Positions 12,199 through 22,948 of a DNA stretch of 32,243 bases are shown piece by piece. Each line of letters starts with the position of its first letter. Position 1 is the stretch's first letter. Under the pieces are notes generated by a model that had not been told where the DNA came from, did not search any database, and saw only the letters and a program-made list of their open reading frames with translations. Origin of the DNA: Methanobrevibacter sp. (GTDB lineage Archaea; Methanobacteriota; Methanobacteria; Methanobacteriales; Methanobacteriaceae); the NCBI GenBank assembly GCA_031284925.1, contig JAITXE010000062.1, positions 1 to 32,243 of the forward strand. The letters run 5' to 3'. Both the position numbers and the translations under genes were made by a program.

Positions 12199-12859
12199 TT
12201 AAGTTAATGTATTAATCATATCAAATAAGTGAATTTCTTTTGGATTTTCTATTAACTTCTTATCTGAACAAACTGCCATCCAATAATGGTTATTTAATAT
12301 ATTCCATGTTTTCAAATTCCCTTTTGTTTTAATAAAATTATCTATAACACTAATTTTTTCACCCAAATTAACTATAAATGAATCTAAATTTACTACAATA
12401 TCTGTTCCTTTCATTTTTACATAACTCTCCTTAACAGTCCAAATTTCAAAGAAAGTACTTATTGGATCTTTACTACTCATAATTGTTTCATATTCATTTA
12501 AATGAAAAAATGATTAGACAACCTGTTATATTCTAAATCATCAATTTTTTCAATATCCACCCCAATAGCTTTATTAGAAACCCCAACAAAAACAATTTAC
12601 CACTATGCGATATATTAAAATGAATATTTGGATGAGAATCTAAAAATGGTTTGCCTTGACTATCAATAGAAATAGAATAATCTTCAATCCCATAATCATT
12701 TTTAAGGATATATCTTAGTAATACTCGCCCTCCCCCAGAAGCAATTTTATCCTTATCAAATAAATATCTTTTATTAAGAAGATTTAAATATTCATCTGAG
12801 AGATAATTTCCCATACTATTGATATTTAATGAAGACAAATTCAAATAATTTAAAATCAT
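12199..12859 (-). pseudogene. 4'-phosphopantetheinyl transferase (Sfp type), interrupted by two frameshifts
   Basis: Fragments NISHSGK, VGVSNKAIGVDIEKIDDLEYNRLSNHFF, HLNEYETIMSSKDPISTFFEIWTVKESYVKMKG; carries GVDIE and WxxKESxxK motifs; shifts at T-rich runs. Confidence 0.8.
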
Positions 12860-13796: not shown

Positions 13797-13871
<75 letters not shown>

Positions 13872-14016
13872 TTATATTGGTTATAATATCTTTATTCATT
13901 ATAATAATAGCATGATAAACCTTTTTTCACAAACAATTTCATATTAGATAGATAATATATAAATAATAGATTTTCTAATATGATATTAAAATAATTTATT
14001 TAGATATAATCCATAT

Positions 14017-14096
<80 letters not shown>

Positions 14097-14097
14097 T

Positions 14098-14174
<77 letters not shown>

Positions 14175-14298
14175 CATATTTTTTTATTTAAAAATCATTT
14201 ATTAATATTTTATTTTACTTTAAAGATTATTCTCAAGAAATGTAATAAACAACTATTTTCATAATAATCAAGAAAAATAAAAGAAATGAGGAAATAAA

Positions 14299-15821
14299 AT
14301 GCATAATAATATATTAATTAAAGAGAGAGAGAGAGAGTCAATGATTTTTATCTAAAAAATAAAATTTTACTGTTCTTCATTCCTTTTATAACCATACTAA
14401 CTTATGCCCCCAAACTTTTCTTTTATAATTATTCAATAGATACTGAAGCAATAATGCTTAATCCATATCAACTAATAATATACTGGATTGGAATAGACAG
14501 ATGGGGTCTTTCTTTTCTTAAAATCTTCTCATCATTTGGAATGGTTGTGAATGTTACATTTATTAATTTAATAACTTATAGTCTTTTGGCAGTAAGTACT
14601 ATTATTCTTTGTTATATCTTTTGGCGATCCGGAGTCAAAAAACATTATTTGCTCCTTGGAAGTTTCATTTATTTAACCTCTCCTTTAATTATCGAGCAAA
14701 CAAACTTTATTCTTCAAAGTGTTGAAGTTGTATTCTCTTTCTGTATTTTATATATTGGGATAATTATGATTCAATTGTACTTTGAAAGTAGAAAATCATA
14801 TTTTTTATTTACGAGCATAATTCTTACTATTTTTGCATTTTCTATATATCAGTCAACAATATTTGCATTTGTAGTTCTTTCAATGATAATACTTTATCTA
14901 ATGTTTAAAGATAAGAGTCTATTGGTATATATTAAAAAAGGACTAATTTGTGTCATGGTTTTAATAACAAGTATTATTATGAATAAAATAATTGCATATT
15001 CTGTACTTTGGATTCTGAAATTAAAACATGCTTCTTATATGGATAATATGTTTATTATTGGGGGGGTGAGCTTTCAAGATTATTTATATGCCATTAGCAA
15101 ATTATTTATACAATATTTTATTCAGTATAATAATTTCTTTTTATTTGCTCTGACTTTCTTATCACTCTTTTGTATTATTATAATATTCAATCAGAAAATT
15201 ACTAAGAAGAAAATTGGAAATGAAAATCTAATAATCTCCTTTATTTCCATTATAGGCATTTATTTCATGTGTATCTTCCCATTATTATTAATGGCTAATG
15301 TTGTGGCAAGAGTCTATGTACCTACTATACCCATTGCACTATTTTTTTTAGTAGTTATTTTTTTATCTAATCTATCTATTAAATCACTGAAGAAAATATC
15401 GATTATATTAATTCTAATTCTTTGTATGGGTCAAATGAAAGTCACATCTGATTTTGCAATGACTGAAGAAGCACAATTTCAACAAGAAATCGCATTATTA
15501 AGTGAAATAAAAGATTTTCTTAATAATGTTAACATTACAAACACAGAAGATTATAAGTTAGCAGTAATAGGAATGAGAACATTTGAAAGTAATCAAATTA
15601 TTAAAGGGGATGTTATTGGTAAATCATTTTTCGAATGGGATGATGGGTGGGATAGGAATTCAAGATTAACTCATTTTTTTTATAATCAAGGATTAAAATT
15701 TAAGTTAATTAATCCAGAAGAATATCAAGAAGCATTAAAACAAAGTAATAATATGCAAAGTTTTCCAGCTAAGAATAGTATAAAGATAAATGGAAACATT
15801 CTAATATTAAAATTAATCTGA
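14299..15821 (+). CDS. GtrII-like multi-TM glucosyltransferase, start separated from the main ORF by an out-of-frame (AG)8 tract (candidate phase-variable gene, OFF)
   Basis: Main ORF 14454-15821 (455 aa). Its frame is open upstream to 14322 (VNDFYLKNKILLFFIPFITILTYAPKLFFYNYSIDTEAI before the annotated Met). ATG at 14299 (gaggaa upstream) enters the AG tract in a frame offset by 2 nt. Confidence 0.75.
14322..14337 (+). repeat. (AG)8 simple sequence repeat
   Basis: Direct reading: ...attaa[agagagagagagagag]tcaatg... Confidence 0.97.
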
Positions 15822-16076
15822 TAAATATTAAATTATCAATCTATTAAATTGCTTTTCTGTTAATTATCATCATTATAGAATAAAATTGCATCAAACCAAC
15901 ATTAATTAGTGAGAGATATCTAAAAAAGTTATATTTCATCAATTAAAAACATTGTTCTGCATCTTTATAACTATTTTTTTAGATGAAATTATAACTTTTT
16001 AATAGAAGAACAGACTTAAATTTACAGTTTCACAAATATTGAAAACAATTATGTGGTGATAAACTATTTAATCATT

Positions 16077-22174: not shown

Positions 22175-22948
22175 ATGCTTAAAAAAGGAATATTAGTTGT
22201 AAATTTTGGAACAACTTATAAAAAACAACTTGAAAATTGCATTGAAGCTATTGAAAATTTTATCGGCACTAAATTTAAGTATTATGATGTTAGAAGAGCT
22301 TTTACTTCAAATATAATAATTAAGAAACTAAAAAAAAGGATAATCTCCATATTGGCACAGTTGAAGATGCTCTTAAGAAAATGAGGGATGAAAAATTTAA
22401 TGAAATCTATATTCAACCGTTACATATAATCTATGGTGATGAATATGAAAAGATAAAATCTGCTACTTTAAACTTTAGCAATGTTTTTGATAAGATAGAA
22501 ATTGGAAGACCATCACTATTTAATAATAAGGATTACTTTGATGCAATTGAAGCTTTAAAATATCAACTTCCAAAAATAGAAGATAATTCATCTATTGTTC
22601 TCATGGGTCATGGAACAACCCATCATGAAAATTCAGCTTATTTCCAATTAGAGTATGTTGCCCGTAAAATGGGATTAAAAATATTTATATGGCAACTGTT
22701 GAATCTTTTCCTGAAATCACAGACATTATTGTTAATTTAAAAAATGATAATATTCAAGAAATAACCTTAGTTCCTTTTATGCTTGTTGCTGGTGATCATG
22801 CTGAAAATGATATGGCATCTGATGATGAGGATTCTTGGAAATCAATTCTTGAGAATAAAAGATTTAAAGTAAATATATATCTTAAAGGGCTTGGAGAAAA
22901 TATTAAATTTATGCAAATCATTTAAATGATGTTATCAATGAATTATAA
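22175..22948 (+). pseudogene. cbiK: CbiK-type anaerobic cobalt chelatase, frameshifted
   Basis: Three overlapping ORFs (22175-22384, 22381-22740, 22689-22925) combine to MLKKGILVVNFGTTYKKQ...DVRRAFTSN...YIQPLHIIYGDEYEK...MGHGTTHHENSAYFQLEY...MATVESFPEI...LVPFMLVAGDHAENDMASDDEDSWKS...LKGLGEN. Confidence 0.85.

Follow-up and report, generated by a model that had tools for sequence, protein, structure and literature searches.

An out-of-frame (AG)8 tract in a methanogen glycosyltransferase gene as a probable slipped-strand switch within a genus-wide repeat set

The gene for a GtrII-type membrane glycosyltransferase in the window (the whole 32,243-nucleotide stretch of DNA analysed) carries at its 5′ end an (AG)8 tract that is probably a slipped-strand (contingency) switch, found here in the OFF state and belonging to a set of tracts that extends across the genus. 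Considering all the loci together, a multi-locus slipped-strand phase-variation system in an archaeon is the most likely reading, with the reservation that switching within a population was not observed. The original prediction had proposed a contingency locus from this single gene; that interpretation was supported, and the phenomenon proved to be genus-wide.

RESULTS

Organization of the GtrII locus

The window is contig G000:C46 of a Methanobacteriaceae MAG of 1.17 Mb (64% complete), and the features of the locus are collected in Table 1.

Table 1. Features of the GtrII locus (positions in the window)
Feature	Position	Strand	Basis or remark
GAGG, likely ribosome-binding site, with a 7-nt spacer to ATG 14299	14288-14291	+	Sequence; GAGG also in the C22 paralog (6 nt before an ATG)
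Leader frame MHNNILIKERERESMIFI, ending in a stop codon; gene start, truncated in the OFF state	14299-14355	+	Translation
(AG)8 tract, proposed slipped-strand switch	14322-14337	+	Sequence, frame arithmetic
TCAATGATT, signature found 3′ of most (AG)n tracts of the genus	14338-14346	+	
GtrII-type (PF14264) membrane glycosyltransferase frame, 493 codons 3′ of the tract	14338-15821	+	
455-aa ORF, mechanically called	14454-15821	+	Unlikely to be the real start
Unit duplicated on contig G000:C22, 87.7% identity	14326-15886	+	Upstream DNA unrelated

The frame opened by ATG 14299 traverses the (AG)8 tract and then meets an early stop. For its part, the enzyme frame is closed 5′ of the tract by a TAA at 14319-14321, is open from 14322 to its stop codon at 15819-15821, and contains no ATG, GTG or TTG between the tract and position 14454. 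If one AG unit is lost or two are gained, the leader and enzyme frames become continuous, over 506 codons in the case of a single loss. This layout, including the coordinates of the start codon and tract, the open stretch up to 14454 and the length of the joined product, had been predicted beforehand and was found to be correct in sequence and translation. Judging by the reading frames, a canonical start for the enzyme exists only when the two frames are joined.

By a first-order Markov estimate from the local dinucleotide composition, an (AG)8 tract should turn up about 6e-5 times per Mb, both strands included. Only three sites with at least six units were present in the whole MAG, located in the window, on C22 and on C77.

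Identity of the enzyme and position of its N terminus

The open frame scored 54.2 bits with the Pfam family Glucos_trans_II (PF14264), for which the cut-off is 30, in agreement with the GtrII-type assignment made at the outset. The nearest named relatives found were a plasmid protein of Lacticaseibacillus paracasei (35% identity, 91% coverage) and a protein of the Enterococcus faecalis phage phiEf11 (27-28% identity). The peptide YAPKLFFYNYSIDTE, encoded in the window 5′ of Met14454, aligned to YAPKILFYSYSIDTE of the L. paracasei protein, and residues Y37, I39, D40 and T41 were invariant across the three proteins. The conserved YAPKxxFYxYSIDTE segment is likewise encoded before Met14454, and the phiEf11 protein starts at the alignment column immediately 3′ of the tract. 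Since the homologues carry this segment, translation from 14454 would yield a protein without the first helix and lacking a conserved acidic residue. Met14454 is thus, on the strength of these alignments, an unlikely start, as its use would cost the enzyme that helix and all four invariant residues. Homologues beginning at Met14454 would have refuted the prediction, and neither the L. paracasei nor the phiEf11 protein does so. The window gene is OFF as assembled, as had been proposed, because the frame from ATG 14299 stops early and the homologues retain the segment upstream of Met14454.

No close GtrII relatives were found in GTDB genomes and no GtrII orthologues in the same genus; the remaining PF14264 genes of Methanobacteriaceae were distant. 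GtrII stands alone, with tRNA-Tyr on one side and a citG-like gene on the other. The context of a gtrA-gtrB-gtr operon was not met, no gtrA- or gtrB-like partner adjoining the gene, and given neighbours that are tRNA genes and a citG-like gene it was filed as a PF14264 protein and not as a gtr operon. With the phage GtrII and O-antigen gtr loci it shares a PF14264 membrane glycosyltransferase, and a phage homologue exists in phiEf11, but it differs from the O-antigen loci in being solitary and in having its closest detected homologues in Lacticaseibacillus and an Enterococcus phage. A single-sequence AlphaFold model of the enzyme frame (pLDDT 44) was too poor to be used for the fold.

A second GtrII copy in the same genome

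A paralog on contig C22 of the same MAG was homologous to the duplicated unit listed in Table 1. The homology begins within the AG tract, and the DNA 5′ of that point is unrelated to the window. Repeat and gene are thus associated at a second genomic location, where another run of at least six AG units marks the start of the paralog's homology. The C22 tract, (AG)6, is one unit short of or over frame joining, as in the window copy, and is preceded by a GAGG of its own, 6 nt 5′ of its own ATG. This copy is additionally broken by two deletions, of 1 and 5 nt, and is thus either a pseudogene or affected by assembly errors. The comparison of GtrII tract lengths is limited to these paralogs (8 versus 6 units at ∼87% identity), and both copies are OFF.

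Decay of GtrII is therefore possible: both copies are OFF as assembled, that on C22 has two further frameshifts, and dN/dS between the copies was 0.54, which indicates only moderate constraint. Gut Methanobacteriota have moreover been reported to be richer in pseudogenes (PMC13135261). That both are decaying pseudogenes, permanently off and with the tract as a neutral microsatellite, is nonetheless unlikely, given that the window copy is otherwise intact over its 493 codons and retains its SD and ATG, and that the same design occurs in genes that are in frame (a GT2 gene with 9 units, a DUF2142 gene with 10 and a 1266-aa ORF with 15; see below).

Distribution of AG tracts in the genus

We infer that the MAG of the window belongs to the genus Candidatus Methanovirga, members of which have been reported inside gut flagellates of lower termites (PMC13135261; PMC11287868, the latter also reporting an M. 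procula relative from Coptotermes). Tracts of at least seven AG units were directly observed in all seven Methanovirga genomes (2-17 per genome, 67 places in total), compared with 8 places in 7 of the 134 genomes of other Methanobacteriaceae. A scan of 85,488 species genomes with a DNA pattern made of (AG)7 plus the signature returned 45 stretches, of which 43 came from this genus, the MAGs bearing the name Candidatus Methanovirga (five species) or Methanobrevibacter sp. Po218_bin58. The two matches outside the genus (L185 and L201) came from a Calditrichaeota MAG and from a Methanobrevibacter MAG of the rumen. The possibility that the tracts are a general effect of AT-rich genomes was rejected, as relatives lack them and the control repeat (AC)≥7 occurred at only about 5 places in the genus.

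For further analysis, 73 tracts of 6-24 units were extracted with their flanks. Every species is represented by one MAG, and tract counts derive from assemblies, not from reads. The motif RTGAT was present within 1-4 nt 3′ of the tract in 50 of the 73, both GtrII copies included.

No MutS_I match was detected in the genus, nor in any of the 141 Methanobacteriaceae genomes; a loss of MutS specific to the genus was accordingly ruled out. Its absence provides a permissive background for repeats and, being shared by the whole family, fails on its own to explain genus-specific tracts.

At one tract, (AG)18 of L175 (G006:C199), the sequence 3′ of the repeat reads like a bacterial lipoprotein, and the contig is possibly a chimera joined at the repeat.

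Tracts within ORFs

About ten of the 73 tracts lie inside ORFs, in genes for a GT2 glycosyltransferase, a DUF2142 membrane protein, type III methyltransferases and GtrII. Also among them is a 1266-aa ORF with GT2, AMP-binding and PP-binding domains, which carries a tract of 15 units and is in frame.

The best evidence came from two orthologue pairs shared by two species, in which opposite frame states were directly observed. The GT2 gene had 9 units and was in frame (ON) in G003, and had 13 units and was out of frame (OFF) in G002; the 200-nt flanks were 97.5% and 99.0% identical, with no indels. Conversely, the DUF2142 gene was OFF in G003 (12 units, out of frame) and ON in G002 (10 units, in frame), its flanks being 99.5% and 99.0% identical. 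In both pairs the tract was altered while its surroundings were scarcely altered, so that the change toggles the frame. A fixed tract length, which would have counted against the prediction, was thus not found: the GtrII paralogs differ by two units, and the orthologous tracts of the congeners differ by 2-4 units between flanks that are 97.5-99.5% identical, with opposite frame states.

Several properties of a slipped-strand phase-variable locus were found, not all of them in GtrII. GtrII has a repeat near its 5′ end that determines, by its number of units, which frame is read. Variable tract length between close relatives, with the flanks kept, was met for GT2 and DUF2142, and for these orthologues both ON and OFF states were found, GtrII having been seen OFF only. 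The genes associated with tracts, as identified with Pfam and PADLOC, belonged to surface, glycan and restriction-modification families.

These pairs also bear on whether the tract length is merely an assembly or consensus error, GtrII being always in frame. We consider this very unlikely: the sequences do come from MAGs, repeats are error-prone and contigs often end near tracts, but a 16-bp tract is far below the length of a sequencing read, and the assemblies of two species show the same gene joined in one and unjoined in the other, with clean flanks. Alternatively, the tract could induce programmed frameshifting, ribosomal or transcriptional, and so deliver a fixed fraction of full-length product without any heritable switch, and both GtrII copies are indeed off frame by the same amount. 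Such a site does not predict orthologues whose unit numbers vary between in-frame and out-of-frame states, and most tracts of the genus lie outside ORFs; we regard it as extremely improbable.

A type III mod gene (MTase_III) of a congener (L228, G004:C178) contains (AG)12 in frame and has a ResIII gene downstream, thereby combining a type III mod, a 5′ repeat and an adjoining res gene, as looked for in a phase-variable type III restriction-modification system (phasevarion); the mod carries a further frame break downstream. AG-tract type III methyltransferase genes in an archaeon were seen there and also at L229 and L136. A dUTPase-like ORF lies upstream of the L228 copy, and L230 and L231 have related 5′ ends.

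Intergenic tracts

Most of the 73 tracts lie outside ORFs, between genes. Their orientation was strongly biased: the downstream gene ran in the direction of the AG strand at all but one of 56 tracts (55:1, p=1.6e-15), while the orientation of the upstream gene was random (23:20). The latter led us to reject the idea that the tracts are tails of upstream genes. Blocks of ∼80-200 nt on each side of the tract were often 80-95% identical within a genome, in front of unrelated genes, and a BRE/TATA-like site (e.g., CGAAACATTTATAAG) was located ∼50-110 nt downstream of many tracts, at a distance specific to each genome. At some tracts of this promoter class, no recognisable BRE/TATA match was present. 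The genes downstream encode adhesin-like beta-helix and Ig-like proteins, small secreted proteins, and CDP-glycerol glycerophosphotransferase-like, GT2, UDP-glucose dehydrogenase and SIS proteins.

The abundance of intergenic tracts raises the alternative that the (AG)n-AATGAT module is mainly a promoter cassette or recombination junction that happened to capture GtrII, frame effects being incidental. The signature that follows the tract is common to coding and promoter tracts, and the homology of the GtrII copies begins at the tract with unrelated DNA upstream, as such a capture would have it. Both coding copies, however, have their own SD and ATG leading into the tract, and a junction module is compatible with frame switching, so that the two could coexist. 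As a replacement for the slipped-strand switch, we find this alternative improbable.

The (AG)7 tract of L012 (G000:C77:3606-3619) precedes an ORF for a short peptide containing Cys and one for a radical SAM/SPASM protein, and adjoins an ABC transporter. This resembles a gene cluster for ribosomal-peptide maturation with a promoter-class tract in control.

DISCUSSION

Repeat-based phase variation is well known in bacteria, and its multi-locus form is a hallmark of bacterial host colonisers. The set described here differs in that it is archaeal and extends over many loci, all with AG as the repeat and many with a common promoter cassette. In the slipped-strand switch that we propose, replication slippage would alter the number of AG units, and one state in three would bring ATG 14299 into frame with the enzyme; the resulting protein would have 506 aa and a short (ER)n N terminus. 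The tracts within the GtrII, GT2, DUF2142 and type III DNA methyltransferase ORFs would all act through the reading frame. In the promoter class, tract length may tune transcription by setting how far an upstream block stands from the core promoter. What is inferred is slippage and its reversibility, switching in populations, altered surface glycans or adhesins, and any effect of promoter-class tracts on transcription.

We lean, with some caution, towards a broader proposal in which these elements form a coordinated one-repeat phasome, the (AG)n promoter cassette and the coding tracts together generating combinatorial surface variation in an archaeal genus reported from inside termite-gut protists. 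The cassette would be common to adhesin-like, secreted, wall-glycan and peptide-maturation genes, and the in-frame tracts would switch glycosyltransferases and type III methyltransferases, so that the surface could vary as much as in bacteria that colonise hosts.

Among the closest known designs is that of the type III mod MmyCI of Mycoplasma mycoides, which contains a coding AG repeat; 12 units lead to a stop just 3′ of it, and with 10 the gene is in frame and active (PMC3498834). The same design is found in the Methanovirga type III mod (in frame with 12 units) and in GtrII. MmyCI is, however, bacterial and was described there as one gene, whereas the Methanovirga tracts are archaeal, affect many loci and lie mostly outside ORFs. 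Multi-locus simple-sequence-repeat phase variation has been reviewed for bacteria such as Neisseria, Haemophilus, Campylobacter and Helicobacter (PMC11868660). Like those systems, the Methanovirga set places repeats of a hypermutable type at surface-protein, glycosyltransferase and restriction-modification genes, both in ORFs and in promoters; unlike them, it belongs to a methanogen of a genus reported inside protists, uses AG as its single repeat unit and has a shared, dispersed promoter cassette.

That 2025 review asks why multi-locus phase variation seems restricted to pathogens and leaves archaeal phylogenies for future work (PMC11868660). Homopolymeric tracts are over-represented at the 5′ ends of prokaryotic genes, 18 archaeal genomes included (PMC2831843); as far as the accessible portion of that source goes, these are short poly(A) and poly(T) tracts, with no archaeal multi-locus switch set and no ON/OFF orthologue pairs. 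Searches of open-access literature (most subscription journals being outside its scope) turned up no methanogen with repeat-based phase variation; the initial remark had been that dinucleotide switches of this kind are little described in these organisms.

The Methanovirga repeats span the same gene classes as in bacteria (adhesins, glycosyltransferases and type III mod genes) and include orthologue pairs in opposite states. If our interpretation is true, archaea evolved or acquired this strategy in a symbiotic setting, and the question can be tested from existing metagenome reads. Gene callers will misannotate such genes, as illustrated by the 455-aa call at the window GtrII.

Some further observations concern other parts of the window. 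Two seemingly truncated ORFs of the window, identified by eye as phosphopantetheinyl transferase-like (12533-12859) and CbiX-like (22381-22740), are possibly pseudogenes or the product of indel errors in the MAG. Genes for tRNA-Thr, -Pro and -Tyr lie at 13798-14172; in the three congeners checked, the Pro-Tyr pair is followed by Asp and Lys tRNA genes, and the window has GtrII there instead. The neighbours of the pair thus differ from those of the congeners, and GtrII occupies a rearranged tRNA site. An imperfect inverted repeat, either MITE-like or a terminator, is located 3′ of GtrII at 15923-16000, and similar copies were found elsewhere in the MAG.
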